From: a virus
Reading direction: 5' to 3' (one strand)
DNA: 64,000 nt
IMG/VR virus record: IMGVR_UViG_3300027709_000056
Coordinates: 62,001-126,000 of that record
In this document: positions 27,784 through 60,439 of the stretch, piece by piece
Position numbering within the stretch: position 1 is the stretch's first letter
Layout: every line of letters begins with the position of its first letter
Position numbers and translations under genes: made by a program
Notes under the pieces: model-generated
Seen by the model: only the letters and a program-made list of their open reading frames with translations
Told to the model about the DNA's origin: nothing
Database searches by the model: none

Positions 27784-29199
27784 ATGACAAACCACAATTT
27801 CTGGAAAAATCACAATAACAAACAACTATCAGAATGGCAAAAGGACATTGAAGATAAATCAAATAGTCCTACTTTCTGTGTGTTACCTTGGATACACATG
27901 GCAACTAGACCAAATGGTGATATGCGATTGTGTTGTGGAGCGAATGCCAGCGGAGCAGGAGTAGACCCAACCATTGGTATAGTTAAAGATTCTACAGGAC
28001 AACACGCTAATTTTGGAAATCAAACACCAATGGAAGCGTGGAATAGTCAATATATGAAAGATGTAAGGAAAAATATGTTGGCTGGTAAAATATCTGCGAG
28101 TTGTCAAAAGTGTTTTCAAGAGGAAGCTAGAGGGATATCAAGCAAGAGAATATGGGAACATAATTACTGGCAAGACGAAAATATTAATATACAGGATTTA
28201 ATTAATGAGACTTTAGAAGACGGAACCGCTCCTGAAAGAATACATTATCTAGACCTAAGGCTAGGACATACTTGTAATTTAAAATGTATAATGTGTAGTC
28301 CGCATGATTCGAGTCAATGGGTTGGAGATTATTATAAGTTAAAAAAACTTACTACAGATAAAAATATACAAAGCCAATTACATTGGGTAAGAAAAGAGTT
28401 CAATAATCAATGGCATGAGAATCCTGAGTTTTGGGAAGAAATGTATAAGCAAATTCCTAACATTAAGCAAGTTTATTTTGCAGGGGGTGAGCCATTAATG
28501 ATTAGAGAACATAAAGAATTTATTAAGGAAATTATTAAGCAGGGTTACGAAAAGAATATTGTGTTGCGATATAATACAAATGGATTATTAATAGATGAAG
28601 AATTTATAAAATTATGGAGTCCCTTTAAAAGAGTACAAGTAGGTTTCAGTTTAGATGGAAACTTTCAAAGAAATCATTTCATTCGTTATCCTAGCGACTG
28701 GGAAATTGTTGATAATAATTTAGATTTACTTGATAATACGTCTGATAATATAGATGTAACTATTGCTACTTGTCTTAGCATTTTAAATATTAAACATCTT
28801 CCTGATTTTGTAAAGTGGAAAATTAATAAAAAATATAAAAAGATTAATACTAGAAAGAACAAGGAAGGATTAATTATAGGTGGAGGACTTGTTAATATCC
28901 ATTTAGTGTATATGCCTACATTCCTTGATATGAGAATATTACCTAAGGAACACAAAGAAGATGTAACAAAACGCTTTGAAGAACTTAAAACTTGGTTATG
29001 GGAAAACTATACACAAGATGATGCTTTTTGGAAATTAAATCCTTATGGTTGGAGAAGATACGAAGGTGTATTAGATTTTATGAATAGTGAAGATAAAACT
29101 GCGATGCTTCCTAGCTTTAAAGATTATATTAATAAGATGGATATAATTAGAGAAACTAATTTTAAAGAAGTTTTTCCTGAACTTGCTGATTTAGTCTAG
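27784..29199 (+). CDS. Radical SAM protein with SPASM-like prefix, 471 aa
   Basis: The Cys-rich prefix (FCVLPWIHMATRPNG, RLCCGA, SCQKCFQEE, residues 31-114) matches the middle of the double radical SAM protein at 10162. C164-x3-C168-x2-C171 and AGGEPLMI follow. The SSQW motif just after the cluster also occurs as STQW in 25278 and SSTW in 10162 unit 2, which marks one subfamily. Its own late promoter and its opposite strand suggest independent acquisition. Substrate unknown. Confidence 0.8.
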   Translation: MTNHNFWKNHNNKQLSEWQKDIEDKSNSPTFCVLPWIHMATRPNGDMRLCCGANASGAGVDPTIGIVKDSTGQHANFGNQTPMEAWNSQYMKDVRKNMLAGKISASCQKCFQEEARGISSKRIWEHNYWQDENINIQDLINETLEDGTAPERIHYLDLRLGHTCNLKCIMCSPHDSSQWVGDYYKLKKLTTDKNIQSQLHWVRKEFNNQWHENPEFWEEMYKQIPNIKQVYFAGGEPLMIREHKEFIKEIIKQGYEKNIVLRYNTNGLLIDEEFIKLWSPFKRVQVGFSLDGNFQRNHFIRYPSDWEIVDNNLDLLDNTSDNIDVTIATCLSILNIKHLPDFVKWKINKKYKKINTRKNKEGLIIGGGLVNIHLVYMPTFLDMRILPKEHKEDVTKRFEELKTWLWENYTQDDAFWKLNPYGWRRYEGVLDFMNSEDKTAMLPSFKDYINKMDIIRETNFKEVFPELADLV

Positions 29200-29757
29200 G
29201 TCTTCAAAAGTATTATTATCTTTATGGTATTTCTTAAAGTCTCTAGCCCAAATTTCTTTGTCTAATAACCAAACATTTTGTTGAGTATAAAGGTATTCAA
29301 AATCTTCTTTTAATAATGAAATGCCCTCAACTCCTCTACGCATAAGTTTATCAACTGCATGACTTCTACCTGCGCCATCTATGCTTTCTGGTCTATTTGT
29401 TGTGTGAATAAAATTACTAGGACCATGAAGTTTATCGATATACTTCATTTGTAGATAATAGTTTATTCCAGCGTTAAGTGAATTAAGTCTTAGATTACGA
29501 CTAGTTTTTTGATTAGCGTCAATTGTTGCACCCCTAAACCCACAACGCCAGTATGTTTTATTATCCATATAAAATTCATGAACACCACTAAACACTTTGA
29601 TACGATTATCTTCAATACCTCCAAAGAACTGTATATGTTCAAAGTAATCAAATTTTAATTTTTTAATTGATGTATTATTATCAAATCCTTTTTTTGCACA
29701 TTCTTCCATAAAAGAAGGTAGTAAAGGATCATCTTTATTAATTTGTTTCCAATGCAT
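29191..29757 (-). CDS. Possible acyltransferase (GNAT-like), 188 aa
   Basis: No confident family. The arrangement of an N-terminal beta region, FRGATIDANQKTSRNLRLN and a helix-rich middle (LNAGINYYLQMKYIDKLHG) is compatible with an N-acyltransferase fold. It overlaps the ANL adenylating enzyme upstream by 20 bases, so the two may use one acyl intermediate. Treat the activity as a guess. Confidence 0.4.
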   Translation of the reverse strand: MHWKQINKDDPLLPSFMEECAKKGFDNNTSIKKLKFDYFEHIQFFGGIEDNRIKVFSGVHEFYMDNKTYWRCGFRGATIDANQKTSRNLRLNSLNAGINYYLQMKYIDKLHGPSNFIHTTNRPESIDGAGRSHAVDKLMRRGVEGISLLKEDFEYLYTQQNVWLLDKEIWARDFKKYHKDNNTFEDLD

Positions 29758-30868
29758 TTCTAATCTTTTTATTCAGCGAGTTTCTTGGCACACTATCAAT
29801 CTTGCTATATTTAAGTGGAATGTTACACGGTGGTAGGTAGGGAACAAGCATTTCTTTAATTGCGTCTTTATCTGGATTACCTTTAGTATGCATTAATTCA
29901 ATATAGTCGCTTCCTGCTTTATTTTTAGGGACAGCCAGGCAATCTCCATAACCCATTTCCTCTAAATAATTTTCAATTAGTAATAGACTACATTGATAGC
30001 CATTTACTTTAACTACATCGTTTGATCTGCCTTTAAACTGTATTAAGCCATTCCCAACATATTGCTTTATTTCAAATAGATCAGCAGTAGCAACACCATT
30101 GTAGATTAATTCATCATTTCTAATTTTGCAATTTTTGTCAAGTTCTAAATAACAAGATGTTTCATCTAATTCAGTAGTTCTATGTCCTAGTACAGGACTA
30201 CCAATTTCTGTTGATCCATATATGTGATTAAAAACGTTGCACCCATTATCAAAAATGTATTTTGCGTGTCTTGGCAATAATTGACTAGCACCAGATGCCA
30301 CGATATCAAATTTGTCAAGTGGTAATTTAAGTTCAGCTATTCTAAATTGATCTATTAATCCAGGGATGAATATTGTAGCATTAACATCAGTTTGGAAATC
30401 ATCTTTAAGTGTTTGTCTATTTGATAATACAATTTTACAATCGTGTTTAACTATTGCTGGCAAAACAATATGCCAGAACCCACTAGTAAATGGTGGAATA
30501 AAATTTAACCAACTTGTATTACTGTTCCAATCAAGATGTTGTTCTGATTTTTTAATTATTTGTTTAAAGGCATTCTGATCAAACGAAACTAATTTAGGAG
30601 AACCTGTGGTTCCACTAGTGTGTAGAAAAACACAATCGTTTGCTGGTTGTTCCGCTAACTGTTTATCTAGTTCTTCCTTTTGCTTGGATGGAAGCATAGG
30701 TGCTCTAACTAATATGCGGCCGCCAACTTCCATCCAAGCAATATAAAGAGCTATGTGATCAAGATGATCAACAGATTCTATTATTACTATTTCATTTTTT
30801 AATTGCTGTTTGTATTTAGAAACAGTGACAGCATAATCTAAATAACTGCCATTGCGGAATATTTTCAC
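29738..30868 (-). CDS. ANL-superfamily adenylating enzyme, short form, 376 aa
   Basis: FLHTSGTTGSPKLVSF is the AMP-binding P-loop; YGSTEIGSPV is motif A5; IQFKGRSNDVVKVNGYQ is the hinge; VPRNSLNKKIR contains the C-terminal catalytic lysine. The family activates carboxylic acids as acyl-AMP, then makes CoA or carrier thioesters. The N-terminal region is short compared with ~500-residue relatives. Start is GTG, overlapping the upstream TAG by one base. No acyl-carrier protein was seen nearby. Confidence 0.8.
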   Translation of the reverse strand: MKIFRNGSYLDYAVTVSKYKQQLKNEIVIIESVDHLDHIALYIAWMEVGGRILVRAPMLPSKQKEELDKQLAEQPANDCVFLHTSGTTGSPKLVSFDQNAFKQIIKKSEQHLDWNSNTSWLNFIPPFTSGFWHIVLPAIVKHDCKIVLSNRQTLKDDFQTDVNATIFIPGLIDQFRIAELKLPLDKFDIVASGASQLLPRHAKYIFDNGCNVFNHIYGSTEIGSPVLGHRTTELDETSCYLELDKNCKIRNDELIYNGVATADLFEIKQYVGNGLIQFKGRSNDVVKVNGYQCSLLLIENYLEEMGYGDCLAVPKNKAGSDYIELMHTKGNPDKDAIKEMLVPYLPPCNIPLKYSKIDSVPRNSLNKKIRNALETN

Positions 30869-31509
30869 TAGAACCTCGTTATAAAGGCTACTGCTGTAAT
30901 TTCAGAATCATAATCACCTCGTTGCCATCCTCTGGTTACCATCATGCTTACCTTTGGTGTAATTTTATAACCAAGTCCGGCGGTAACTGTTTCTGTTTCC
31001 CAAACAATATCATCAGAATCTCTAAATCTATAATTTAGATCAGTAAAAAGTCTGTCAGTAAGTTTATACTGTGTTCCAACTTTTATTGTAAAATAATCAT
31101 CTGTGTTTTTGTCTGAGTTTTCATACTTTCTCCAACCCAAGCTATAGAATGCATACGGGGAAAAGTCTTTAATCCTCGTTGTATATCCAATACCAGCCAT
31201 CCACCTTGTTTCGTCATTAACAGCTGAAAGGTTCGGATAACCTTTCTGGTACATACCAGTTAATGTAAACCCGCTATCAAATCTATAAAATCCTTGGACT
31301 TGAAATAGGTCAACGCTTAATGTTTCGGAAATTGTTTCAACACCATAACCTGAACCTACAACTAACTTCTTTAAATTAAAAAGCGGTTCTTTTTTTACTG
31401 TTTCAGTATCAGTAGGTGGTGTTTGAGCATGGGCGGCAGTTAATCCAATAGGACCGGCTACCGCTGTCAATGATAGTATCATTGCTCCGATTAAGATAAT
31501 TTTTTTCAT
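30868..31509 (-). CDS. Exported outer-membrane beta-barrel protein, 213 aa
   Basis: A signal peptide (MKKIILIGAMILSLTAVAG...TAAHA-QT) is followed by alternating beta strands (YGVETISETLSVDLFQVQGFY, FTLTGMYQKGY, RWMAGIGYTTRI, TAGLGYKITPKVSMMV) and ends in Phe (FITRF), the usual barrel-assembly signal. This is consistent with a small 8-strand OmpW/OmpX-like barrel. ATG at 31509 with GGAAAG upstream is preferred over the ORF's earlier start. It overlaps the DUF2061 gene. Possible roles are receptor masking or altered permeability of infected cells. Confidence 0.75.
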   Translation of the reverse strand: MKKIILIGAMILSLTAVAGPIGLTAAHAQTPPTDTETVKKEPLFNLKKLVVGSGYGVETISETLSVDLFQVQGFYRFDSGFTLTGMYQKGYPNLSAVNDETRWMAGIGYTTRIKDFSPYAFYSLGWRKYENSDKNTDDYFTIKVGTQYKLTDRLFTDLNYRFRDSDDIVWETETVTAGLGYKITPKVSMMVTRGWQRGDYDSEITAVAFITRF

Positions 31510-31913
31510 GTGGTCTTTCCCCAATTTATTAAGTTCCAAATTCTTTCATGTGTGTAATGTACAACGATGAACAGGATATTTGTTACAATAGTCCACTCTA
31601 ACGCATGAGCAGAACTAAGACCCATCATCATACCAATTACAAATAAAACAAACATGGACCATAGTCGCCAAGTAACCGTCTTAGCCGTTGTTCTAAAGTG
31701 TGTATCCTTGTTGTCTATTCTTTGCCATTTAACTCTATTCCATATTTTTTCTTGTACCCAGAACGATGCAAACCCAACAGTATATGATAGAATAACAAAT
31801 GTAATTCCAAATCCTGCTGAATAGTTCATTGCCAGTGCCGCGAGAAAAATGCTCACTGCAACGACTGTTCTGTATGAAAGAGTTTTTACTACTGTCCTAA
31901 GATTATTATCCAT
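31506..31913 (-). CDS. Double DUF2061 membrane protein, 135 aa
   Basis: Two tandem copies of a ~55-residue unit: K-T-x-S-Y/T-W-R, two hydrophobic segments, then W-V-Q-E-K-I-W-N-R in copy 1 and H-Y-T-H-E-R-I-W-N in copy 2. This is the DUF2061 pattern, giving four membrane spans. Single-copy versions are common in bacteria with unknown function. ATG with GGAGG five bases upstream fixes the start; the TTG 12 bases earlier overlaps the ribosome site. Overlaps the outer-membrane barrel gene by four bases. Confidence 0.75.
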   Translation of the reverse strand: MDNNLRTVVKTLSYRTVVAVSIFLAALAMNYSAGFGITFVILSYTVGFASFWVQEKIWNRVKWQRIDNKDTHFRTTAKTVTWRLWSMFVLFVIGMMMGLSSAHALEWTIVTNILFIVVHYTHERIWNLINWGKTT

Positions 31914-31989
31914 TATGTCCTCCAATTAAGATCTATGAGTTTCATAGTACAGTTACTATATACTTATTGTTCTGCAAAACCGGGGGGTA

Positions 31990-45461: not shown

Positions 45462-46328
45462 TCAAGTTCCCCAGGAGTTTCCGAAGATATCGACGTGTAG
45501 TCTGGGTGTGTATCTCCATCCTCTTCCCATTGCAAGTTTGGCGACTGTTTTTGCGTTTTCTTGGTATTCTTCGTAACACCCACCCACGGCCATACAGTAA
45601 ACTGGACACTCAACCCCGGCAGATTTGTACTCGTCCACAGCTTTAGTAACTTCGTCCACATCCACTTCGTCAGCCACGACAAACTTAAGATACAAGTGAG
45701 TCCCAGGGACAGTAAAATATGAATCAGCAACTTTAGGCTTGATAGCATCACTCCATAACTCACCACTGACAGTAAGTTTCGGAGAGCACGACCAAGTAGT
45801 ATGAAATCTTGCTTTAGTTGAGATGTAGTCTCTGAAATCATCTCTAAGCTCTTGTGTAGTGTTTGTTTCAAACGTAACATTCTTTAAATCTCCCATTTTT
45901 GGATGTTCAAACAGGTCTACATACATCCGTTGCCATCCAAGCAAAGGTTCACCCCCTGTTATTACAAGGTGAATATCTTGTCCATTATTACAAGTCCATT
46001 TGCCTTCTGGTGTAAGAGAAAGTAATTCATCAACTAGATCGTCTAATTGGTAATCCGTAGTAAACTTTTTAAATCTTGGATCCCATGATGCATAAGAATC
46101 ACAACCCCTATGCACTAATGGCAAATCTTTCAATACTTTGTACTTATCCGGGTTTTCCTGGTGGTCTTTAGCAATCAGGTTGTAGTCATTAGCCAATTCA
46201 CCTCTTGGCATACCAAAACCACGGCATTTAAAGTTGCACCCATACATACGCAGGAAAACCGAAGGTACACCAACAAAGCGACCTTCTCCTTGCACACTAT
46301 AGAATGATTCGCACACTCTAGCCTTCAT
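45462..46328 (-). CDS. queE: 7-carboxy-7-deazaguanine synthase QueE, 288 aa
   Basis: ESFYSVQGEG (7-16), the cluster start GCNFKC and VITGGEPLLGWQ identify QueE, which uses SAM radical chemistry to turn carboxy-tetrahydropterin into 7-carboxy-7-deazaguanine. The cluster cysteines are C31 and C35, but the third expected Cys is replaced by GFGM; the next Cys is C76, after a ~40-residue insertion. Sits below folE in the same operon. Confidence 0.85.
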   Translation of the reverse strand: MKARVCESFYSVQGEGRFVGVPSVFLRMYGCNFKCRGFGMPRGELANDYNLIAKDHQENPDKYKVLKDLPLVHRGCDSYASWDPRFKKFTTDYQLDDLVDELLSLTPEGKWTCNNGQDIHLVITGGEPLLGWQRMYVDLFEHPKMGDLKNVTFETNTTQELRDDFRDYISTKARFHTTWSCSPKLTVSGELWSDAIKPKVADSYFTVPGTHLYLKFVVADEVDVDEVTKAVDEYKSAGVECPVYCMAVGGCYEEYQENAKTVAKLAMGRGWRYTPRLHVDIFGNSWGT

Positions 46329-46476
46329 ATATCTTCTCCCTTATAACAGCCTTATCATAGCCTAATCTGGACATTTCGTCCAAAAACTTTTCTTCTGTCC
46401 AAGCACCATACTCAAACATTTGTATTGCTTTATTCACTTTACGATTCCAAAACTCTCTTACAGACGAAACACTCAT
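46318..46476 (-). CDS. Small hypothetical protein between folE and queE, 52 aa
   Basis: An open frame beginning MSVSSVREFWNRKVNKA and ending VIREKIYEG. It overlaps the folE stop by an ATGA junction and the queE start by 11 bases, so it is translated between them. Composition is helical, with alternating charge. Function unknown. Confidence 0.65.
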   Translation of the reverse strand: MSVSSVREFWNRKVNKAIQMFEYGAWTEEKFLDEMSRLGYDKAVIREKIYEG

Positions 46477-47159
46477 TTTGAATGTCCTTTCATGCTTAAA
46501 CAGATATCATAAAATTCTTGTTTTAGTGCTGGGTCTTCACTAAATGCACCTAGCATAATTGCAGTAGTCATATCTGATTCGTGTTCTTTTACACCACGTT
46601 GTGTCATACAATGGTGTTCTGCTTTAACTACAACCGCTACGTGTTTTGTTTTTGCAAACGTTGAAAGTTCATTTGCAATTTCTGTAGTCATTTCTTCTTG
46701 TATTTGTGGGCGTTCGGCGATGTGATGTACTAGTCTATTAAACTTACTCAGACCAATAACTTCTTCTTCAGGTATAATGCCAACCCAAGCATTACCTACA
46801 ATATTTTGAAAGTGATGGGCACAAGTGGACCGAACACTTATTGGTCCACTCGTATACAAAGATTTGTAACCCATATTGGGAAAACTTGTTACCGCAGGTC
46901 GCGGATTAAACCGACCTCCGAAGATTTCGCGAACATACATTTTTGCAACACGTTTTGCTGTATTGCGAGTATTATGATCGTTTTCAGTATCTATTACGAG
47001 AGAATCAAGAACTACTTGAAACGCTTCCTGAACTTCCGTTTCAAGTTGTTCTTTCTCATATTCATAGATATGTTCGCTGATATTATCATTCGCATGAAAT
47101 CTTATGCCTGCGTCTATCAGCCTTTGTCGAATTTGTGTACTTACTTTTCCCAATGTCAT
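46473..47159 (-). CDS. folE: GTP cyclohydrolase I, 228 aa
   Basis: RSTCAHHFQNIVGNAWVGIIPEEEVIGLSKFNRLVHHIAERPQIQEEMT covers the zinc Cys-His motif (T-C-A-H-H) and the L-S-K-x-N-R substrate block; KAEHHCMTQRGVKEHES holds the second zinc Cys. It converts GTP to dihydroneopterin triphosphate, the first step to 7-deazaguanine. Its own sigma70 promoter lies 40-70 bases upstream. Confidence 0.9.
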   Translation of the reverse strand: MTLGKVSTQIRQRLIDAGIRFHANDNISEHIYEYEKEQLETEVQEAFQVVLDSLVIDTENDHNTRNTAKRVAKMYVREIFGGRFNPRPAVTSFPNMGYKSLYTSGPISVRSTCAHHFQNIVGNAWVGIIPEEEVIGLSKFNRLVHHIAERPQIQEEMTTEIANELSTFAKTKHVAVVVKAEHHCMTQRGVKEHESDMTTAIMLGAFSEDPALKQEFYDICLSMKGHSK

Positions 47160-47201
47160 TCTCCGATGTTAAGGCAGTGGATTGCCATAATCTAATATAC
47201 T

Positions 47202-47230
47202 ATTGTATAGTATATTTAGGTTTTTGTCAA
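47202..47230 (-). promoter_or_regulatory. Sigma70 promoter of the folE-queE operon
   Basis: On the - strand, TTGACA (47225-47230), 17-base spacer and TACAAT (47202-47207), 43 bases before folE. Confidence 0.8.
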
Positions 47231-47235
47231 GCATT

Positions 47236-47433
47236 TTAGAAATGTTTGTTAGCCATTTCAAGCATATCATTATACTTGGCAATTAATTCAATTTCAGTAC
47301 TGATCGTACTGATCATGTCAGGATGGTCTGCTACGCCGGTAGTATTATTGAGTAGTACCTCAACATTAGCTACTGACTTTGCAATTTGGCCTGCCATGTG
47401 TGCCTTAAAAGCTTCTAAGAGTTTCTCTCTCAT
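47236..47433 (-). CDS. Small conserved phage protein, 65 aa
   Basis: A helical protein (MREKLLEAFKAHMAGQIAKSVANVEVLL) that I recognise as a type found in marine T4-like phages. AGGAGAA precedes the ATG. Function unknown. Confidence 0.6.
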   Translation of the reverse strand: MREKLLEAFKAHMAGQIAKSVANVEVLLNNTTGVADHPDMISTISTEIELIAKYNDMLEMANKHF

Positions 47434-47435
47434 AG

Positions 47436-48317
47436 TTATTCTCCTTTCAAAGGGTTAAATTGTGATGGTAGATATTCTAAAGCAATTTGTTGATGAATTT
47501 CTTCATCAAAGTGTTCGCCATCTTTAGTGTGCTTTAGTATGTCTACTTGTTTATTCTGCAAGAACCAATCTTCTACAGAATCTGGTGCTACTTGAATACT
47601 ATCAAAATTATAAAAATCATTCATCATAGGTGGTATCCAAGTCCATTTATTTAAACCAAAAAGTTTCAGTTCGGCTCCGTATTCTTTACAAAGTGTTTGT
47701 AAAATATATATTTCTTTAAACCAATCTCGCTGATTCTTTAGGCTCATAATCTCCATCCAAGTTTTAACTTGCATATATGGGGTATCTCTTAAGTCAGGAG
47801 TTTTCCAATGAAATGCTGGTTTCATTTCTATTTCTAACTCTGGTTTCTTTTTCATATCAACTGCATGAACTTGTAATGGCATATCAAATGCTCTAAATAA
47901 AGATAGATTACGTTCATTAAGTGCTATATGTTTACTCCAACAATCGATATTTCCTTTTGTTGTTTCTTTAAAAAATAAGTCTTCGTATTGAATAACATTT
48001 TCATAGTCTGGTGGTTCTACCCAAGTTACTCTAAAACGATTCCAATATGTATTTTGTATTACAACTTCTTTAATGTCATCATATTTTCTAAAAAGAAAAC
48101 TTAACCATTCGCTATATTCCCACCAACCATTAGATGGGTTTGCAAATATAACACCATCAGCACCTTTACTATTAATATAAAACTCAGCCCAATTATTATC
48201 ATTCCATCTACCTGAGAATGGCCAAGTTTCAAAATTTAATGGTGTATTGTCATCAGCAGGCATATCAGCTATATGATATCCACAAGTATGACTACAACCT
48301 AGTGCCGCAATTCTCAT
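47436..48317 (-). CDS. SGNH-like hypothetical protein, 293 aa
   Basis: IAALGCSHTCGYHIAD at the start has the G-C-S-x-T nucleophile-like block also seen at 13639 and 20409. NPSNGWWEYSEWLSFLF and VVIQNTYWNRFRV follow the same order as the others. The C-terminal D-x-x-H block is not clear. Probable SGNH fold, activity unproven. Overlaps the HIT-like gene by four bases. Confidence 0.45.
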   Translation of the reverse strand: MRIAALGCSHTCGYHIADMPADDNTPLNFETWPFSGRWNDNNWAEFYINSKGADGVIFANPSNGWWEYSEWLSFLFRKYDDIKEVVIQNTYWNRFRVTWVEPPDYENVIQYEDLFFKETTKGNIDCWSKHIALNERNLSLFRAFDMPLQVHAVDMKKKPELEIEMKPAFHWKTPDLRDTPYMQVKTWMEIMSLKNQRDWFKEIYILQTLCKEYGAELKLFGLNKWTWIPPMMNDFYNFDSIQVAPDSVEDWFLQNKQVDILKHTKDGEHFDEEIHQQIALEYLPSQFNPLKGE

Positions 48318-48724
48318 TCAAACAGCCTCATTTGTTTTTCGTCGTCGTCTTCAGCAAACTCATTCCAGTCTTTTTTATAGTTCCCTTTATCAGGAATAGC
48401 ATGACGCACTCCTCCAGTCGGATCAGATACATCAGCTTTACGTCTAGGAATTAAATGTACGTGAGCATACATTATAGATTGTCCTGCTTCACGCCCAACG
48501 TTTTGTCCAATGTTATAAGCATCACAATATCCTTTTTGCACCCAATCATAACCCCATTGGTAAGCGGCCTTATAACATTTTGCTAAATGTTCCCAGTCTT
48601 CTATTTTAGGAACAAATAATAAATGTCCTTCAGTTACCGGATACTTGTCTTTCCATACATAAAAGTCTTTAGTTTTAATTAAAGGTTCATTATTTAAATA
48701 CCAAACGGTTTCTTCAAGTTTCAT
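48314..48724 (-). CDS. HIT-domain-like protein, 136 aa
   Basis: GHLLFVPKIEDWEHLAK and AGQSIMYAHVHLIPRR match the HIT nucleotide hydrolase/transferase fold. The triad H-x-H-x-H reads Y-A-H-V-H-L, so the first His is Tyr while the central His, the usual nucleophile, remains. Likely nucleotide binding; catalytic efficiency uncertain. Confidence 0.7.
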   Translation of the reverse strand: MKLEETVWYLNNEPLIKTKDFYVWKDKYPVTEGHLLFVPKIEDWEHLAKCYKAAYQWGYDWVQKGYCDAYNIGQNVGREAGQSIMYAHVHLIPRRKADVSDPTGGVRHAIPDKGNYKKDWNEFAEDDDEKQMRLFE

Positions 48725-48948
48725 TTGTCATGCTCCTCAACCCATTCAAGTACATTCATCATTGTATGCAATCGTTTACGGGCTTCATTAAGATTAAGTG
48801 CAGGTACCCAAGCAGTACCTTTATTTTGTTGCATCTCTAACATAATGTCCTTATGCTTATCTCCTTTTGTAAATTTAATAACGTCTGATGTTTTAAATTT
48901 TAAAACGAAGACTTCTTTTTTCTTTTTAAATGGTATAACATTAGTCAT
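48721..48948 (-). CDS. Hypothetical protein, 75 aa
   Basis: Starts MTNVIPFKKKKEVFVLKF, with GGAAG before this ATG; the ATG 18 bases upstream lies in the preceding gene. Basic and helical at the end (ARKRLHTMMNVLEWVEEHDK). No family recognised. Confidence 0.5.
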   Translation of the reverse strand: MTNVIPFKKKKEVFVLKFKTSDVIKFTKGDKHKDIMLEMQQNKGTAWVPALNLNEARKRLHTMMNVLEWVEEHDK

Positions 48949-49423
48949 CTTTATAACTTCCAACATTTTCCCAAGGGTATACTAACCATACATCATCTTC
49001 GGCTTTGTTTACTTCGTGAGCCCAATACTTAACATCTTGGAATTCACTTGATAAATTTTCAGTTAAAACTGCAAAGCGGACATTGTTCATACTAGAATTA
49101 ATACACCAATCGTGTCTAATCCAATTAAAAGTAGCACCTGTATCATTAATGTCATCTATTACTAAAATATTTTTTCTTTTTGATACAGCGTCTTCGGCCA
49201 TCCATGTATTAGATTCATTTTTTCTAGCATGATCACGTAAAGCAACCTTTAATGATTCACATCTAATATCTAGCATATTACTTAATATAGCCGCAGGTAT
49301 ATTGCCCCCTCTTGTGATTCCTACAATGTATTCAGGTATCCATTTATCTTTGTACATACCAAGTACAATTTGTTTACACATATTTTCTATGTTAGTCCAA
49401 CTGTAATAATGTTTTTTAACCAT
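48941..49423 (-). CDS. Phosphoribosyltransferase, 160 aa
   Basis: IVGITRGGNIPAAILSNML is the N-terminal loop and ILVIDDINDTGATFN (D-D-x-x-D-T-G-x-T) is the PRPP-binding signature of type I phosphoribosyltransferases. Size fits xanthine/hypoxanthine types. It would convert a free purine or related base to a nucleotide. Placed among the 7-deazaguanine genes, it might salvage bases for that pathway, but this is inference. Confidence 0.8.
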   Translation of the reverse strand: MVKKHYYSWTNIENMCKQIVLGMYKDKWIPEYIVGITRGGNIPAAILSNMLDIRCESLKVALRDHARKNESNTWMAEDAVSKRKNILVIDDINDTGATFNWIRHDWCINSSMNNVRFAVLTENLSSEFQDVKYWAHEVNKAEDDVWLVYPWENVGSYKDD

Positions 49424-50048
49424 TTATAATCCTTATATTGTCTTCCGGCGTACGACCTTCTATTCCATTACCTGGATATTTTAAAGGCGTCTCAAGCCAA
49501 GCTGTTCTTCGCTTGTTCATCACCTCTTGTGACACAAACTTTAATGCAGGTGTAAAACGTTGTCTACCTCGTAACCCTGTTGCTGTATGCGACATTGTAC
49601 TTGGGAACGTCATAATACGTCCTGGAATCGGTGCTACACTATGAATAATCTGTTTAGGATCTATTAAAATTTTAGTTTCACCTCCTTCATTAATATCCCA
49701 AAAAGTTTGTGGATAAAATAATAGTGTCATTGCTTTAGGGTCTGCATCATCAGTATGATAATAAGCATTTTCTCCCGGAGCAAAAAAATTACAAGAAGAT
49801 TTAAAAAGAACTAGTCCGTTAAGTTCTGGACAATGTTCTTCACAAAATTTCCATAACAATTTAAAAGTTTCTGTATGTGTTATTCCTTCACAAGCCAGTC
49901 CTGTTGGAACAGGATTTTCTTTATTATCATATGCTCCAAAACTAAAAAGTAAACTTGAATTTTCTACTTCTAGTTCTCTAATTTTTTCAATTGGAAAAAC
50001 ATCGTCGTATATTTTAAGTCTACCATCAATGTGACTACCTATTATCAT
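49416..50048 (-). CDS. 2-oxoglutarate/Fe(II) oxygenase, 210 aa
   Basis: YYHTDDAD supplies H-x-D; GGETKIL, and SHTATGLRGRQRFTPALKF supply the distal His and the 2OG-binding Arg. These proteins are common in marine T4-like phages; targets (protein, nucleotide or DNA) are unknown. Overlaps the phosphoribosyltransferase gene by eight bases. Confidence 0.8.
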   Translation of the reverse strand: MIIGSHIDGRLKIYDDVFPIEKIRELEVENSSLLFSFGAYDNKENPVPTGLACEGITHTETFKLLWKFCEEHCPELNGLVLFKSSCNFFAPGENAYYHTDDADPKAMTLLFYPQTFWDINEGGETKILIDPKQIIHSVAPIPGRIMTFPSTMSHTATGLRGRQRFTPALKFVSQEVMNKRRTAWLETPLKYPGNGIEGRTPEDNIRIING

Positions 50049-50473
50049 ATTCCGTATTTTTCCTTTAAATACTGTTCATTATTAATCCATTCACCGTTTC
50101 TTATAAATCCCCAGTCTTGTTGTTTTTGTCCCATAAAGAACAAACTCCAACACGGTATTTCGTTACCGTCTGTATCTTTTTTAAGTTCTAGTCTATGTAA
50201 AGATTGTGCTTTACAAAAACGAAAATGTCCTGGACCACGCCAAAATTTACCTTCAGGTGTGTGTTCGTAATATCCACCTTTTAAAATAATTGTAACATAA
50301 TCCCATGGATGATCATGTAAGTCATCTAAGTCGCTAACTAAAATTTTATGTAATGTGAGGTTAAACGGAAACCTTTTTCTATCTTTTAAAAACAAATAAT
50401 ACCTAACCAAATACGGAATTTTATTATACCGATCATATATAACTCGTTTTCTATTTTTAAACAGACCCATCAT
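50045..50473 (-). CDS. Cupin-fold protein, 142 aa
   Basis: DLDDLHDHPWDYVTIILKGGYYEHTPEG has the cupin H-x-H and G-x(5)-E/H motif, and CKAQSLHRLEL supplies the second His block. Metal-binding beta-barrel, substrate unknown. Either of two adjacent ATGs may be the start. ATGA-type overlap with the oxygenase gene. Confidence 0.7.
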   Translation of the reverse strand: MMGLFKNRKRVIYDRYNKIPYLVRYYLFLKDRKRFPFNLTLHKILVSDLDDLHDHPWDYVTIILKGGYYEHTPEGKFWRGPGHFRFCKAQSLHRLELKKDTDGNEIPCWSLFFMGQKQQDWGFIRNGEWINNEQYLKEKYGI

Positions 50474-50810
50474 TTACAGGTTCCTCGTATGTATAATCAT
50501 CTTTAACTAGATCATAGACAGTTTTAAATTTTTCATATTGCAATTTAAGTCCAGGATATTTTTTAATCATATCCTCAATAACTACTTCTGATGGCCAATT
50601 GTCAAATGTCTGTCTCTGCCATTCAGTTCCTAAAGCATTATTATCTATGTTTATACTGATAGGTGTACTAGGTGCTGTTACAGTACCATAGTTTGTACTA
50701 GCATCAAATGATACAGTAAGACTAGAATCAGAGTCTCCTGCTATAGATGGAGTAGTATCATATGATATTTTATACTCAGGTTTTGGAAGTGTTGATGTAT
50801 CAACTGTCAT
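50457..50810 (-). CDS. Conserved hypothetical phage protein, 117 aa
   Basis: The N-terminal half is low-complexity Ser/Thr/Asp-rich and likely disordered; the C-terminal half is helical (WPSEVVIEDMIKKYPGLKLQYEKFKTVYDLVKDDY). I recognise the latter block from marine T4-like phages. No function known. Confidence 0.55.
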   Translation of the reverse strand: MTVDTSTLPKPEYKISYDTTPSIAGDSDSSLTVSFDASTNYGTVTAPSTPISINIDNNALGTEWQRQTFDNWPSEVVIEDMIKKYPGLKLQYEKFKTVYDLVKDDYTYEEPVNDGSV

Positions 50811-51882
50811 AGTTTATTCCTTCATAAAGTTTTTTACCGCTAAAATAATCTGCTTTTAATTTAGCGACTTGCTTTTGTATTAAAGGAAGGTAACTATCAT
50901 AATTTTCTATATAATTCGTAATTCTTTCTCTAATATCTGCTTTGTGATGCGTGTATGCTTTAAATGTCGTTGTCCATTCTGACGGATATTTAAATTCTTC
51001 TAATCCCATTTCTTTATAACTTAAACGATCTGGGACCATCGGGATTGCATTAACTAACGCACCTTCATACCAACTAATACCTAATGTTTCTTGTAAGTTA
51101 GCACTAAACACAATTTTAGCACGACCTAATAGGTTATGATATTCATTCTTTGTTAAAGTTTGATCTTGACATACAACAAATTCATAATCTGGTAATTGTG
51201 TTCTTAAATCTCTAAATATATCTGGTTGTTTTTCTGGAGCAATTCTATGTGGGAAAAGAATTAAATTTTCTTTGTCCATATGTTTGTAACTATCTAAACT
51301 TTTTGCTAGATACTCCATAGGCCATCCAGTACGTATAACTTTCTTTTTACTAGCTTGTGGAGTTAATCCAATATGGCTTTCTACATTATCAAATGTACTA
51401 GCAAACATATCAATATGGAAATTGGTTGCAAAGTAATTATGATCATATACTTCAAACATAGATTGTTCTGCATATCTGCACCAAGGTGCATCGCCAATTA
51501 ATCTACCTAAAAAGTCTGCTGGATCATAACTACCGGCGTGCCACATACCACCTATTTTAATCTTAACGCCTAATAGTTCTGCCATATATTTTAATTGTAT
51601 AACAGTAGGATTCCATGCATCTGTATATAAGAAATAATCACCATGATGTATTCGTCCTTTACAGAACATTTCGCCTATTTGTTCTAACTGATTACTTTTG
51701 TAAACGTTAGTTCCGCCAAAGTTAAGAAAAGCCCCCGGCGTTGTAGCCTGCGGGGCCTCTCCTCCACTTATAACTACGACATCTTTACCTGTAGCTTTCC
51801 GTAGTTGTACTGGCAGGTACTCTTTCCACTGTTTAGTGTACCTTGTATCAACTGCTTCTATGTCTACAATATAAATTGTCAT
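50800..51882 (-). CDS. GT-B glycosyltransferase-like protein, 360 aa
   Basis: LILFPHRIAPEKQPDIFRDL (phosphate-binding loop of group 1-type enzymes), VVCQDQTLTKNEYHNLLGRAKIVFSANLQETLGISWYEGALVNAIPMV (E-x7-E region) fit the C-terminal GT-B domain. Could glycosylate a base, protein or surface sugar; its place in the operon with queD and dpdA makes DNA base glycosylation one hypothesis only. ATG at 51882 overlaps the upstream stop (ATGA); the 27 residues upstream in frame are basic junk in another gene. Confidence 0.65.
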   Translation of the reverse strand: MTIYIVDIEAVDTRYTKQWKEYLPVQLRKATGKDVVVISGGEAPQATTPGAFLNFGGTNVYKSNQLEQIGEMFCKGRIHHGDYFLYTDAWNPTVIQLKYMAELLGVKIKIGGMWHAGSYDPADFLGRLIGDAPWCRYAEQSMFEVYDHNYFATNFHIDMFASTFDNVESHIGLTPQASKKKVIRTGWPMEYLAKSLDSYKHMDKENLILFPHRIAPEKQPDIFRDLRTQLPDYEFVVCQDQTLTKNEYHNLLGRAKIVFSANLQETLGISWYEGALVNAIPMVPDRLSYKEMGLEEFKYPSEWTTTFKAYTHHKADIRERITNYIENYDSYLPLIQKQVAKLKADYFSGKKLYEGINYDS

Positions 51883-52091
51883 TGTCTTCGTTTGTTCCTT
51901 CTTTGTCGGCTTCGTTGTTGTCGTTCTCTTCGAGCCTTTTCGGGGTCTAAGAACGCCTGCCAAACTTTTGACTTTTTATTATATAAATCTCTTTCATCAA
52001 ATTTATATCCTTCAAAACGACAAAAGTCTCTTAGTTTATCTAGATCATCAAAGATCTGTACTACGTCGGGTCGAGTTGCAAAATAGCCCAC
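51879..52091 (-). CDS. Small basic phage protein, 70 aa
   Basis: MGYFATRPDVVQIFDDLDKLRDF then a Lys/Arg-rich tail (KARRERQQRSRQRRNKRRQ). The tail suggests nucleic-acid contact. AAGGAG near the start. Function unknown. Confidence 0.55.
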   Translation of the reverse strand: MGYFATRPDVVQIFDDLDKLRDFCRFEGYKFDERDLYNKKSKVWQAFLDPEKARRERQQRSRQRRNKRRQ

Positions 52092-52108
52092 AATGTGTTC
52101 TCCTTCAT

Positions 52109-52549
52109 TTAGCTACGTGCATATTGAATATGGCAACCATTTTCGCCATCTTCAGAAATGTCAATGTTTACTGCTCGTGATTGATAACGTTCTGATATTT
52201 TATTATATAAATCATCAGCCATCATTTCACAAGATTTAAAGTCTACATTTAGTTCCCCTTCATATAGTTCCTCCAACCATCTTTTAAATTGTATAAACTC
52301 AATATCCCTATCATCGTGGAATACTTCGATCGCTACTTTAAAGTGGAAAATATGTCTGTGTAAATATCCTAAGAAAGATACATCAAACTTATCTCCAGTA
52401 GCTAGTTTTGGATCATCAAGTGCCGCAGGATACTTATGCATCCCTTCTTTGCGGAAGGTAACCCAAATCATTCTTGACGCAGATTGCATAATCTTTTTAT
52501 GTCTATCTTCGTCCATTTTTTCTAATACCATAGTGTCCATAGTACTCAT
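52109..52549 (-). CDS. queD: QueD-like 6-carboxytetrahydropterin synthase, 146 aa
   Basis: H39, H64 and H66 (FLGYLHRHIFHF) are candidate zinc ligands; the following VEVFHDDRDIEF and SCEMMADDLY blocks match the phage QueD/PTPS type. It would convert dihydroneopterin triphosphate to carboxy-tetrahydropterin for QueE. The first ATG directly follows the promoter -10, so translation may start at Met4, Met7 or Met12 instead. Confidence 0.8.
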   Translation of the reverse strand: MSTMDTMVLEKMDEDRHKKIMQSASRMIWVTFRKEGMHKYPAALDDPKLATGDKFDVSFLGYLHRHIFHFKVAIEVFHDDRDIEFIQFKRWLEELYEGELNVDFKSCEMMADDLYNKISERYQSRAVNIDISEDGENGCHIQYARS

Positions 52550-52578
52550 ATTATACTGCTTTCATTGTTATTTGTCAA
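52550..52578 (-). promoter_or_regulatory. Consensus sigma70 promoter overlapping the queD start
   Basis: On the - strand, TTGACA (52573-52578), 17-base spacer, TATAAT (52550-52555). The -10 abuts the first ATG of queD, so the transcript would start inside or at the coding sequence. Confidence 0.8.
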
Positions 52579-53107
52579 CCTCTAGTTTTTCATCTTTAGA
52601 GTATTGATCCCAGTTTGTAAATTTTTTTCGATCCATCAAGTCGTGTATTTGGTGTATCCAAACCCCAGGATTAGTTGCGTCAAAATTCTCATCATCAATT
52701 TTAATACAAGCATTATAGTTTAACTGATCAATGTTTGGTAATTTAACACTAATCTGTGAAATAAATCTTTCATAATCATTATACTCTTGTTGTACTACCC
52801 AATTGTGATATTTAATATCATAATCAAGAGTTACCCAAAATCCTTTGTCGAGCAATCCTAATATGCTCTCAGACCATAATTTAATTTCACCTGAATGATT
52901 TTGTATTAAGTCTACGTGAAAACTGTGATTAGCACCAAGATAGATATGTTCGTTACCTTGATGTTCTGCGTGTTTAAGAATATCATCTAAAGACTGTGGT
53001 CCAACAACAAATAATGTGTCCATATCAAATGCAGGAGTTTTTTCTACTTCAAATCCAGTAAAAAATTTTACATCGGATTCTGTACCACTGCTATAAACAC
53101 GTTTCAT
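52568..53107 (-). CDS. Conserved hypothetical marine T4-like phage protein, 179 aa
   Basis: Contains NEHIYLGANHSFHVDLIQN and GFWVTLDYDIKYHNWVV. I recognise it as a protein commonly found next to queD in marine T4-like phages; no activity known. Start forms a TAATG-type overlap with the upstream gene. Confidence 0.65.
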   Translation of the reverse strand: MKRVYSSGTESDVKFFTGFEVEKTPAFDMDTLFVVGPQSLDDILKHAEHQGNEHIYLGANHSFHVDLIQNHSGEIKLWSESILGLLDKGFWVTLDYDIKYHNWVVQQEYNDYERFISQISVKLPNIDQLNYNACIKIDDENFDATNPGVWIHQIHDLMDRKKFTNWDQYSKDEKLEVDK

Positions 53108-53424
53108 TATTTGTCATTCCCAGGATCTGTTTCGTCGCCATCAATTTGATCAATTGGTGCTTCACCTGTACCTTCATTCAGGACTTCCAAATTAGGTTTT
53201 TCTGTACAACCAACATGGACTAGTTCAACGTCCCATCCTTCTTTTAACATATCCCGGACAGCATCTAAGCCTCTTGATCGGATAGTATTTCCCCAATCTT
53301 CTACAAATTCAACACATTCGGGTTTAGTATCAAAATGTCTAGAAAGAACATTTACTATTTCGTCCCTTTCTACTCCACTTGGCTCTGTTAATGTAAATGC
53401 CAAAAGTAGCATAAAAGTTTTCAT
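53107..53424 (-). CDS. Hypothetical protein with possible signal segment, 105 aa
   Basis: MKTFMLLLAFTLTEPSG looks like a short hydrophobic leader; the rest is acidic with an extended C-terminal tail. It has its own sigma70 promoter. No family recognised. Confidence 0.5.
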   Translation of the reverse strand: MKTFMLLLAFTLTEPSGVERDEIVNVLSRHFDTKPECVEFVEDWGNTIRSRGLDAVRDMLKEGWDVELVHVGCTEKPNLEVLNEGTGEAPIDQIDGDETDPGNDK

Positions 53425-53467
53425 TGTTTTACCTCTTGTTTGCCTAAAAAAATACGATTACAATAAT

Positions 53468-53495
53468 AGTATAACACAATATACTTAAATGTCAA
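53468..53495 (-). promoter_or_regulatory. Sigma70 promoter
   Basis: On the - strand, TTGACA (53490-53495), 16-base spacer, TATACT (53468-53473), 44 bases before the 105-aa gene. Confidence 0.75.
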
Positions 53496-53686
53496 GCATC
53501 ATTGTTTTCTAATTGTGCCAATTCGTCTTTGACCTTAAGTTTCATTTTTTTGTGTCTCTTTATTATTGCCTTTGTTTCCCAATTTCTATTGCCTTTTTCA
53601 TCTCGTTCTTCTTCCATTTGTTCAACTTTTCTATGTAAGTAGTCGAACTCTTTTTTAAGTCGTACCGCTTTTTTACTTTTGCTCAT
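53492..53686 (-). CDS. Small charged coiled-coil-like protein, 64 aa
   Basis: Dense in Lys/Glu (LHRKVEQMEEERDEKGNR, RHKKMKLKVKDELAQLE), with a heptad-like pattern. It starts inside the end of dpdA by 14 bases. Function unknown. Confidence 0.5.
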   Translation of the reverse strand: MSKSKKAVRLKKEFDYLHRKVEQMEEERDEKGNRNWETKAIIKRHKKMKLKVKDELAQLENNDA

Positions 53687-55214
53687 ACTCCAGTTCCTCT
53701 AGTTTGTGCTCTTGTTCTTCAGTGAACTCGTCATCTTCAACTAGTGGCGTTGTACCATCGGATACATCAAATAGTGAATTAAACTGAGCACTTGCATTCA
53801 CAGTTCGTTTGCCTGTCATACCTCTAGTTCCTATCACTGAAATCCAAAATTTATTAAATTCTTCTATTACTGCCATTGCAGTATCTTTACTATCTGTTGC
53901 AAATATAGCCTCTATAATATCTCTAAAGTAAACTCTATCAAAACGTTCATCAACTAGCATTTTTGGAATAACATTATTATCATATTGTCTGTTTGCTTCT
54001 TGTACTGCATTAATATGATGCCAAACATTATGTCCCATTTGAATTGCATAACTAAATGAATCCCAACTAGTTCTACCTTCTTTACCTATCTTATTTAGGT
54101 CACCTGGCTTATAACAACATACATCTGAAACTTTTAATCCATCCGTTATAGGTGAATTTTCAAAGTTTTTAAATACACCATCTTGTAATACTGCATCTTT
54201 AAATGAACGAGTATCTGTAGCATACTTTTTATCATCTATACTCGGTACCATTCGGTACACCCATTTAGATCTATCTTCTGTTTCTGTTTGAATATAAACT
54301 TGTCCATTTGCAGTTGCTAAGAAAGGACTTGCACAATCAAATGTAACTGTAAAGTTTGGATTATGATATTTACGAACTGCTCGTTGTACGTCAGTTAGTA
54401 AGGCCGCCCATTCAAGTTTAGATGTACCTAAGAAGTGCATGAAGTCATGTTTACCTGTTTCTAATAGTCCATCAAAACGTAATGCTACAAGTCTTTTTAA
54501 TACTAGGTGTATGTCACACATATTTTGACCACCCATTGACCAACCTTTAAAATGATCGCTATATTTTTTAGGATCACAATAGTCTTTCATTTGCTGATAC
54601 CAATCTTCTGCATCAGCATGGTTTTCGCCTTGTAAAACATTTAAGAATTTACAATTACCATTTTGTTCTTTCATAAAGTAATCGTTATTAATGCGTGTAG
54701 CATTAACGGCATCTTGATAATTGTCAATTCCTGTTGCTTTTGCTCCTGCTGGAGAACGTGATACCCAAGCTGGAATATCTAAAATCATTCCATAGTCCAT
54801 ATACTCATCCATCCAAGCAAGAACTTGTTCACGTTTCTTTTTAGCTTTAGGACAGTTAGGATCTTTCCAATCGCCTTCCCAAACACCTTTACCAATTTGG
54901 AAACCACCTGAGTCACCAAGTAGCCAACTATTCTTACGATCCCTGTTTCGAATCATATCTTCTTTAGGTGAATGTTTGTTTATATCTAGTTCGGCGTGTC
55001 CCGCACTATATAGACTCCAATGATATTTGAATAAACCCTTTTGTGGGTTTAACCAGTTCATACTTTCTACATCGTTCGGGAAGTTTGATGGTACTCTAGT
55101 TTTTTCAACATACTCTGCGTGTCGTTGCTTTCCTATATAAGTTGCAAAGAAGCCACTTATTGCTGGAAGGAATATTGCATAATCCTTTTGTGCAGTTGTT
55201 AAGTCTGTATTCAT
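53673..55214 (-). CDS. dpdA: DpdA-like DNA 7-deazaguanine transglycosylase (TGT family), 513 aa
   Basis: D101-S-G-G-F-Q106 is the TGT catalytic Asp block. FLNVLQGENHADAEDWY, FKGWSMGGQ and TFDCASP (D293, candidate nucleophile) follow in family order. Length (~500) fits phage DpdA, which exchanges guanine in DNA for a 7-deazaguanine. tRNA TGT is an alternative but is shorter (~375) and carries a CxCx2Cx25H zinc site that I do not see here. Same operon as FTR1 and clamp genes. Confidence 0.8.
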   Translation of the reverse strand: MNTDLTTAQKDYAIFLPAISGFFATYIGKQRHAEYVEKTRVPSNFPNDVESMNWLNPQKGLFKYHWSLYSAGHAELDINKHSPKEDMIRNRDRKNSWLLGDSGGFQIGKGVWEGDWKDPNCPKAKKKREQVLAWMDEYMDYGMILDIPAWVSRSPAGAKATGIDNYQDAVNATRINNDYFMKEQNGNCKFLNVLQGENHADAEDWYQQMKDYCDPKKYSDHFKGWSMGGQNMCDIHLVLKRLVALRFDGLLETGKHDFMHFLGTSKLEWAALLTDVQRAVRKYHNPNFTVTFDCASPFLATANGQVYIQTETEDRSKWVYRMVPSIDDKKYATDTRSFKDAVLQDGVFKNFENSPITDGLKVSDVCCYKPGDLNKIGKEGRTSWDSFSYAIQMGHNVWHHINAVQEANRQYDNNVIPKMLVDERFDRVYFRDIIEAIFATDSKDTAMAVIEEFNKFWISVIGTRGMTGKRTVNASAQFNSLFDVSDGTTPLVEDDEFTEEQEHKLEELEYEQK

Positions 55215-55217
55215 TTG

Positions 55218-55760
55218 TTACCCCAAATGTTCAATTGCCTCATAGCCAAACCATAAAGCAAATATAAGAAACGTATATCTTGTAATTGAAAATAGTGTTT
55301 GTGTTTTAATGTGTTTTCTTATTAACGGAAAAGCACCAAATACTAATGCAATGGCAAGTCCTGCCCCTAACCATCCATCGCTTGTATTGTTTACTGATTG
55401 AAACATAAAAATAAATATTTCCATAAATTCTCTAGCAAAAATAAAGAATATTGTAAACATTCCTACAAGCAAACCTGTTTGTCCACTTTTAATATAGCTG
55501 ACGTGTTGTTTAATATGCGCCGCCATATTCTTACTATTAAAGAACAAATAAAACATTAATAAAGAAAGTAATGCATACATACCTACTTCGTATGCCTCTA
55601 ATGCTTCACCTAAAAAGATTCCAGATGCTAATCCTGTTAGTAATCCTATAAAAGCTGGTACATATACTTTCCAATTTAAACCTATAGCTGTAGAAACCAT
55701 GACAGTTAAAAACATCATTTCTAAAGCCTCACGCCCTACATAAACAAAACTTGCTAACAT
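55218..55760 (-). CDS. FTR1-type iron permease-like membrane protein, 180 aa
   Basis: Two motifs exactly 100 residues apart: R10-E-A-L-E14 and R110-E-F-M-E114, matching the REGLE/REXXE Fe(III) ligand motifs of FTR1/EfeU permeases. About six hydrophobic segments are visible. It is shorter than typical FTR1 (~270+), with no fused periplasmic domain. It would import iron, probably with an oxidase in the host. One-base overlap with the clamp gene, so it is not a contaminant. Confidence 0.75.
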   Translation of the reverse strand: MLASFVYVGREALEMMFLTVMVSTAIGLNWKVYVPAFIGLLTGLASGIFLGEALEAYEVGMYALLSLLMFYLFFNSKNMAAHIKQHVSYIKSGQTGLLVGMFTIFFIFAREFMEIFIFMFQSVNNTSDGWLGAGLAIALVFGAFPLIRKHIKTQTLFSITRYTFLIFALWFGYEAIEHLG

Positions 55761-56494
55761 TATTTGCTCTGTGCAGGTAAAATATAATTGTAATCAGTTA
55801 GTCCTGAATCTACACTGATTTGCATAGCCCCTTGATCTGAAATCTTCATAGTTAGTTTTCCATCAAGACTTAATATAGCTTGGACTTGTGCTACAGGCCA
55901 ACTCCACGAATGTTTTAATTCGGTTTCAATTCCTGTATGTTGAAATACAAATGATCCTGCGTGTGTTGAATGATCACCAAAGTAAAATACTAATGTATTG
56001 TTTTCTGTTTTAACTGTAAAAACAGTTTCTTCGGCGTGTGCGGCACTTTGTAATTTCATTCTGTTAATTGATGCCATTGTTGGTTCAAATTCAACTTCCC
56101 AAGTTGCACCTTTAAATTTAACAGACTTTAATTTTTCATTAATAATTTCGCTATTCATAAAACGATAATCATTTTGGAAATCTCCTGCTTCATTTTCAAA
56201 GTGAATATGTGTTGGAATAGTTACTCCGTTTCTATCTGCTTTTTCTACAGATAGTTTTGCATTTTTCTGATATTCAGGATTTTTTAAATGCAAAGCTAAC
56301 TTATCTAAGTTTGGCATACCAAATGTTTCTTTAAATTCTGAAACAGGATTTTTTGCTGTTGCTGTAAGAATTACAGAACGATCCTCAGCCATACTCTCAA
56401 TAGTAGTACTTTGATCGTCACCTGTAACCTTAACTAGATTTAAAAAGCCTAGCGAATGTGTATGGGCAACGATATCTTGTAAGATGTCTTTCAT
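55760..56494 (-). CDS. 45: Probable sliding clamp (T4 gp45-like), 244 aa
   Basis: The length is close to T4 gp45 (228). Alternating strands (FKETFGMPNLDKLALHL, FMNSEIINEKLKSVKF, NTLVFYFGDHSTHAGSF) follow the clamp pattern, and the tail (SGLTDYNYILPAQSK) ends in the usual beta edge. The identity is weak, so this rests on architecture plus position upstream of the replication operon. Transcribed from a sigma70 promoter. Confidence 0.55.
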   Translation of the reverse strand: MKDILQDIVAHTHSLGFLNLVKVTGDDQSTTIESMAEDRSVILTATAKNPVSEFKETFGMPNLDKLALHLKNPEYQKNAKLSVEKADRNGVTIPTHIHFENEAGDFQNDYRFMNSEIINEKLKSVKFKGATWEVEFEPTMASINRMKLQSAAHAEETVFTVKTENNTLVFYFGDHSTHAGSFVFQHTGIETELKHSWSWPVAQVQAILSLDGKLTMKISDQGAMQISVDSGLTDYNYILPAQSK

Positions 56495-56517
56495 ACGATT
56501 TTCTCCATTAAGTGTTT

Positions 56518-56546
56518 ATTATACGTGTCTTTTATTATAAAGTCAA
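56518..56546 (-). promoter_or_regulatory. Sigma70 promoter of the clamp-FTR1-dpdA operon
   Basis: On the - strand, TTGACT (56541-56546), 17-base spacer, TATAAT (56518-56523), followed by GGAGAA before the clamp ATG. Confidence 0.85.
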
Positions 56547-59912: not shown

Positions 59913-60439
59913 CGTGTTATTCCGAAGTGTTTATACGTTTGCTGTACGCATTTAGCTTGATAGTAAGAGTCTGCTAAGGCGTTGTGTGCGTCGCTCTGTA
60001 TAGCTTTACGAGGGTCTTTAGGCATCATACTAAACAATGTACGGCTATCACGTATTTGCCAGAAGTTCCAAGGTACTGGTTTACCCAGTTGTTCATATAA
60101 GTGTTCTAACATACCAAAATCAAATAAAGGACCTTGACACCATAAGTAATCTAAACCAACACACCATTTATTTAGGCGTTTGGTTAATTCATTCAGGCCA
60201 ACTCTGTCTTCATCACCTAGAGCTTCATCTCTAATACTTGCTTTTTGTTTGCCCCACCAGTTTAATGTATCTTGATCGATTGTACGACCTAGTTCCGTTT
60301 GGTCGTCTACATTAATACGTAGGTATAATCCATCATGTGGATCAACGTCTGTATATGGATCAAACTTAATTGCTCCGAGTGTTAGTATAGCGGAATTAGG
60401 TTTAACTCCTAATGTTTCTAAGTCTATCATTCCGTGCAT
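59909..60439 (-). CDS. dexA: 3'-5' DEDDh exonuclease, T4 DexA-like, 176 aa
   Basis: GMIDLETLG (Exo I), GPLFDFGMLEHLY (Exo II) and HNALADSYYQA (Exo III, DEDDh type) identify a proofreading-type exonuclease. T4 DexA degrades 3' ends of single-stranded DNA. Coupled by ATGA to hemB and by one base to the polymerase. Confidence 0.8.
   Translation of the reverse strand: MHGMIDLETLGVKPNSAILTLGAIKFDPYTDVDPHDGLYLRINVDDQTELGRTIDQDTLNWWGKQKASIRDEALGDEDRVGLNELTKRLNKWCVGLDYLWCQGPLFDFGMLEHLYEQLGKPVPWNFWQIRDSRTLFSMMPKDPRKAIQSDAHNALADSYYQAKCVQQTYKHFGITR

Follow-up and report, generated by a model that had tools for sequence, protein, structure and literature searches.

Introduction

DUF2061 (PF09834) is a membrane domain for which we know of no assigned function. 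A doubled form, with two copies of the domain in one protein, is encoded by uncultured Caudovirales; such genes are common in uncultured phages, nearly always without an adjacent barrel. The double-DUF2061 protein described here ('DUF2061x2') has in common with them two repeats, the R-K-R and HERxWNxIxWG signatures, and four helices. It differs in being co-translated with an outer-membrane protein ('OMP') and with an adenylate-forming ligase ('ANL') that has the full set of motifs, and in reaching 84% identity to one lineage only. Single DUF2061 proteins occur in phages beside APS-kinase-like genes, and in Bacteroidota beside CysH-CysD-CysN. In both settings, as here, the homologous membrane domain adjoins enzymes of adenylylated substrates; what sets our locus apart is that the domain is repeated, and that ANL takes the place of the APS-kinase-like gene.

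Three further systems invite comparison. Small, secreted, phage-encoded beta-barrels ending in Phe are represented by the OMP_b-brl family (PF13505), the cyanophage OMPs (PF24653) and Lom; our OMP is of the same kind, clears the cut-off of PF13505, and scores weakly on the other two. Dlt-type D-alanylation, like our locus, combines an adenylating enzyme (DltA) with a membrane protein, but neither DltB nor DltD is seen among the neighbors of our genes, and no working carrier protein was found. The GtrA/DPMS transmembrane domain (PF04138), finally, also has four helices, likely a mere matter of common arrangement.

The phage and its four-gene unit

The DNA analyzed, 'the window', is a stretch of 64,000 nucleotides; it runs from base 62001 to base 126000 in a virus record of 199.8 kb that is possibly a fragment. 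The phage origin of the record is sound. Its DNA polymerase is of the T4 type and is closest to those of the jumbo phages Phosso (50%) and Atu_ph07 (45%), which makes an alphaproteobacterial host plausible rather than demonstrated. A large island spans positions 15158-35524 of the window. It contains numerous radical SAM/SPASM genes, and also encodes aminotransferases, a dehydrogenase of UDP-sugars, a PP-loop enzyme and methyltransferase-like proteins. Elsewhere in the record (L268:5550-20000; record positions about 45550-60000), one open reading frame exceeds 4,800 codons and continues past the interval analyzed.

A reading made from the sequence alone had singled out two overlapping genes here, OMP and DUF2061x2, as a membrane cassette, and it placed the boundaries of both exactly. 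We find that the two belong to a run of four overlapping genes (Table 1).

Table 1. Features of the four-gene unit (window coordinates)
Feature	Position	Strand	Product or content	Remarks
DUF2061x2	31506..31913	(-)	135 aa, ATG start	RBS GGAGG precedes ATG
OMP	30868..31509	(-)	213 aa, ATG start	PF13505 + signal
ANL	29738..30868	(-)	376 aa, GTG start	PF00501 + motifs
X188	29191..29757	(-)	188 aa, family unknown	fourth gene in unit
Intergenic gap 5' of unit	31914..31989	(-)	76 bases	gap sizes computed

The DUF2061x2 and OMP genes share the 4 bases ATGA, the OMP stop and the ANL GTG overlap by 1 base, and ANL and X188 overlap by 20. Translational coupling of OMP and DUF2061x2, one protein for each membrane, is supported. 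The genes upstream of the gap are co-oriented with the unit, and comprise an APH-like kinase, a radical SAM/SPASM protein, a HisC/CobD-like aminotransferase and two unknowns. A scan for promoters and terminators gave nothing above background. Among 50,697 phage records, no match turned up to any of the four proteins; OMP, ANL and X188 have no relatives in cultured phages.

The outer-membrane protein

OMP begins with a Sec-type signal, MKKIILIGAMILSLTAVAGPIGLTAAHA|Q, which ends in AHA. Its sole hydrophobic segment is at residues 4-22, with none later in the chain, and its terminal residue is Phe. PF13505 matches it at E 4.9e-9 and 37 bits (curated cut-off, 28.7). The signal, a beta-strand pattern and the terminal Phe had been taken in the earlier reading as those of a true outer-membrane protein, and the profile match agrees. 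Weaker matches occur to Porin_4, to the Phage_OMP family PF24653 (18.9 bits, below the cut-off of 27) and to Lom (17.8 bits, E 0.0046); phrog_417 matches at E 0.0021, and none of the Lom or phage OMP profiles tried (PF24653, phrog_108 and phrog_417) reaches its cut-off. In density of amphipathic 10-mers, OMP ranks top of 158 proteins compared in the phage record, a value equalled in 3% of 2000 composition shuffles. Read from its sequence, the mature protein would have about ten strands, arranged as five hairpins; an AF2 model built on an alignment of two sequences has a pLDDT of 34 and is usable for its C-terminal half alone, where it shows only strands. We considered that OMP might be a recent acquisition from a host, and rejected this: among 289 genomes, from the class of an alphaproteobacterial locus, there is 1 weak match, and this has an internal stop.

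The double-DUF2061 protein

The sequence-only reading had also seen two DUF2061 copies in the overlapping gene, and PF09834 indeed matches DUF2061x2 in two stretches, with 33.2 bits for the whole protein (cut-off, 23.1). Scored apart, one repeat (25.5 bits) is over the cut-off and the other (18.8 bits) under it. The AF2 model (pLDDT 88) has four helices, at residues 4-28, 33-60, 72-96 and 101-128, and an alignment of 19 double DUF2061 proteins conserves R, K, R and the HERxW positions. Alignment and model together give one two-helix hairpin per repeat, with R/K and HERxW at its ends. Predicted structures of two viral proteins annotated as DUF2061, A0A6J5L743 and A0A6J5KNW9, superimpose on DUF2061x2 with a TM of about 0.85; a fold search of the PDB returned no significant solved structure. 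Structural alignment with DPMS covers 90-93 residues at an rmsd of about 3.0 (Z 5.6-6.0) and provides a fold lead only. Homology to GtrA/DPMS looks doubtful: comparison of profiles is negative, hhalign giving a probability of 0.2% for DUF2061 against a GtrA set of eight sequences. PF04138 matches 1 of 19 DUF2061 members (E 0.0023).

ANL and X188

ANL, a short ligase, is matched by PF00501 at E 8.7e-11 and 41.7 bits (cut-off, 29.9). It has the core motifs of adenylate-forming enzymes: TSGTTGSPK, YGSTE, GRSNDVVKVNGYQ and, at the C-terminus, the Lys-bearing PRNSLNKKIR. The closest solved match, a weak one (E 2.9e-5), is the D-alanine ligase DltA. In its homologues from loci L043 and L074 the presence of PF00501 was verified. 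The ANLs of other gene arrangements lack the C-terminal motif, and may therefore be partial enzymes. Relatives of X188 adjoin ANL and DUF2061x2 in L025, L074 and L092. In L043, L047 and L095 a double DUF2061 gene is followed by those of a truncated AMP-binding protein (248 aa) and of a protein with no assigned family (190 aa), and clamp-loader-like and methyltransferase-like genes adjoin the set.

The same phage has one carrier-protein-like gene, the only one found, far from the four-gene unit (L270:19125-19409; record 145043-145231, minus strand). It scores 22 bits against PF00550, over the cut-off, and its phosphopantetheine Ser seems to be Asp (DLDGDDMDMIE).

Conservation in another virus lineage

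All four genes, with overlaps of like kind, recur in contigs L003, L004 and L005, which are mutually 99.9% identical and are counted here as one lineage. Amino acid identities between the window and L004 are 84% for DUF2061x2, 61% for OMP, 74% for ANL and 73% for X188, and the overlaps in the two are 4, 1 and 20-23 bases. The dN/dS ratio against this other virus is about 0.16 for OMP and about 0.07 for DUF2061x2, showing purifying selection; with identities of 61% and 84%, these low values argue that neither is a chance open reading frame. The radical SAM and methyltransferase genes that neighbor the unit in the L004 lineage are represented in the window by homologues some 10 kb off, on the opposite strand, from which we infer that the unit stayed together while its surroundings moved. 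From the recurrence of four genes and their overlaps at 61-84% identity, in different surroundings, we conclude that the unit is genuine and maintained by selection. The sequence-only reading had staked its membrane pair on conservation elsewhere, and in this one other virus lineage the pair is kept.

Neighbors of double DUF2061 genes in phages

A search with a DNA pattern built on the HERxWNxIxWG end yields DUF2061 loci from viruses and from cells, at least 119 of each. Twenty-three of the viral loci are double, and only the L004 lineage (L050) among them has an adjacent OMP homologue. L029, L053 and L056 have barrel proteins of other families close to DUF2061; other barrels are 5 kb or far more away. 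We rejected nearness of OMPs to DUF2061 as a general rule, since P is about 0.05 within loci and other phage OMPs are farther away. The barrel gene in L056 (4490-5860) encodes a complete porin of alphaproteobacterial type (Porin_2, 160 bits), 1.3 kb from the double DUF2061 gene on a phage contig. ANL recurs more often: 8 of the 23 double loci, representing three arrangements, have a homologue beside DUF2061x2, and in no locus sampled is there one elsewhere. With a looser threshold, phmmer also matches ANL in two single-DUF2061 loci, so that ANL is not tied exclusively to doubles. A gene with a PP-loop ATPase motif adjoins four further double loci. Fourteen of the 23 did not score as having ANL or a PP-loop gene; 3 of these have a divergent ANL by clustering. 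Cassettes of the radical SAM/SPASM island type adjoin DUF2061x2 in L059, L060, L078 and L110.

The notion of a membrane cassette thus survives in part. There is one coupled protein for each membrane, but a dedicated pair is not supported: the recurrent partners are the ligase and sulfate-activation genes (below), and they point to chemistry on activated molecules. The pair is better seen as part of the four-gene unit, with DUF2061x2 and the adenylate-forming ligase as the recurrent core. The rarity of the adjacent barrel might instead mean that OMP and DUF2061x2 are unrelated morons, acquired separately, neighbors by chance, and each with its own minor function. That OMP accompanies DUF2061x2 in only one other lineage, that most double genes do without it, and that other phage OMPs lie no closer to DUF2061 than chance allows all fit such an account. 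Against it stand the 4- and 1-base overlaps, which are retained between two viruses with 16-39% of residues changed and with different genes flanking the unit, and we regard independent acquisition as rather unlikely.

Single DUF2061 proteins and sulfate activation

The neighbors of single DUF2061 genes give the clearest picture. In 66 of 93 viral loci, a fusion of an APS-kinase-like domain with a nucleotidyltransferase occurs within 3 genes of DUF2061, and in none does it occur farther off. A sulfotransferase is sometimes present as well in these loci (among L020-L138, e.g. L023, L027 and L033). In cells, the companions of DUF2061 are CysH-CysD-CysN for Bacteroidota and TauE/SafE for Pelagibacteraceae. 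In Armatimonadota, Patescibacteria and archaea, CysN/CysNC or CysD takes this place. Among 21 Bacteroidia genomes, picked by profile and not by DNA pattern, 8 have CysD, CysH or APS kinase within 1.5 kb of DUF2061, including a case of double DUF2061 (L292). With ANL, APS-kinase-like, CysD/CysN/CysH and TauE neighbors, DUF2061 looks to be tied to adenylylation and sulfate activation, as an inner-membrane partner of this chemistry. The 199.8 kb phage record, which may be incomplete, has no match to PF01583 (APS kinase) or PF13469 (sulfotransferase), and a sulfur role for single DUF2061 proteins is therefore not simply transferable to our phage.

In the portions available of the full-text literature that names the domain, we found no link to sulfur. 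Published tables include DUF2061 genes in the iron-regulation sets of Caulobacter, with an iron or Fur-type response (PMC3751524), and in an iron regulon of Shewanella (PMC12442407); a Pseudomonas study lists DUF2061 among polymyxin-B hits (PMC12632274).

One function that these contexts suggest is nutrient uptake, OMP serving as a small pore and DUF2061x2 supplying the infected cell with imported sulfate or a different anion. Its company of sulfate-activation genes and TauE in cells, and of an APS-kinase-like gene in phages, speaks for this, as do the iron or Fur-type response of DUF2061 genes in Caulobacter and their listing in an iron regulon of Shewanella. Four helices with neither an ATPase nor a known carrier fold would make an odd importer, the uptake model leaves ANL and X188 unexplained, and a sulfur-activation gene was not found in the phage record. 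Altered nutrient entry, which the sequence-only reading had offered as one possible use of the membrane pair, accordingly gains slight support from the sulfur context of DUF2061, and loses some to the lack of such a gene; we consider it doubtful.

The other use proposed in that reading was exclusion of other phages. It is known in general that phages can make porins and surface proteins which keep other phages out. OMP would mask or replace a receptor, and DUF2061x2 would block the entry of DNA at the inner membrane. One phage making two membrane proteins together is what such a scheme calls for, and OMP does match, weakly, the Lom and phage OMP family profiles. But DUF2061 genes adjoining those for sulfate activation are spread widely through bacteria and archaea, which is atypical of an exclusion protein; most double-DUF2061 phages lack the adjacent OMP; and exclusion gives ANL and X188 nothing to do. 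We think it quite improbable.

Functional interpretation

The most economical reading is that the unit activates a small carboxylic acid and acts at the envelope. We propose, with a probability of about one in three, that DUF2061x2, OMP, ANL and X188 form a co-translated accessory unit through which the phage changes the envelope chemistry of its Gram-negative host during infection. ANL would activate a carboxylic acid, either an amino or an acyl acid, as its adenylate, and X188 would assist transfer of the activated acid. DUF2061x2 would be the partner in the inner membrane, dealing with the activated substrate or with the product formed from it; alternatively, it might import the anion to be activated, as single DUF2061 proteins may do with sulfate. 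OMP would be the surface end, either a pore or a changed receptor, added in the lineage of the window to an older DUF2061x2-ANL core. The shared order and overlaps of the four genes, the low dN/dS of OMP and DUF2061x2, the ANL homologues adjoining double DUF2061 and the sulfate-activation neighbors of single DUF2061 speak for this reading. Against it count the lack of an APS kinase or sulfotransferase match in the record, the double loci that scored for neither ANL nor a PP-loop gene, the ANL matches in two single-DUF2061 loci, the missing C-terminal motif in the ANLs of other arrangements, and the distance and altered Ser of the sole carrier-protein-like gene. More loosely, a phage unit that modifies the envelope or nutrient supply is our best guess.

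A broader proposal, which we put forward as unlikely in its full extent, is that DUF2061 serves generally as a partner, in the inner membrane, of enzymes that form adenylates (APS/PAPS in cells and many phages, acyl adenylates in phages of this type), and that large phages have coupled the doubled version to a ligase and a barrel, so remodelling the host envelope. Sulfate-activation neighbors in several phyla, and in most of the single-domain phage loci examined, make a role for DUF2061 directly testable, and this link is the more useful result. The four-gene unit is a compact case, in which DUF2061 has a different adenylating enzyme for a neighbor, along with an outer-membrane protein.
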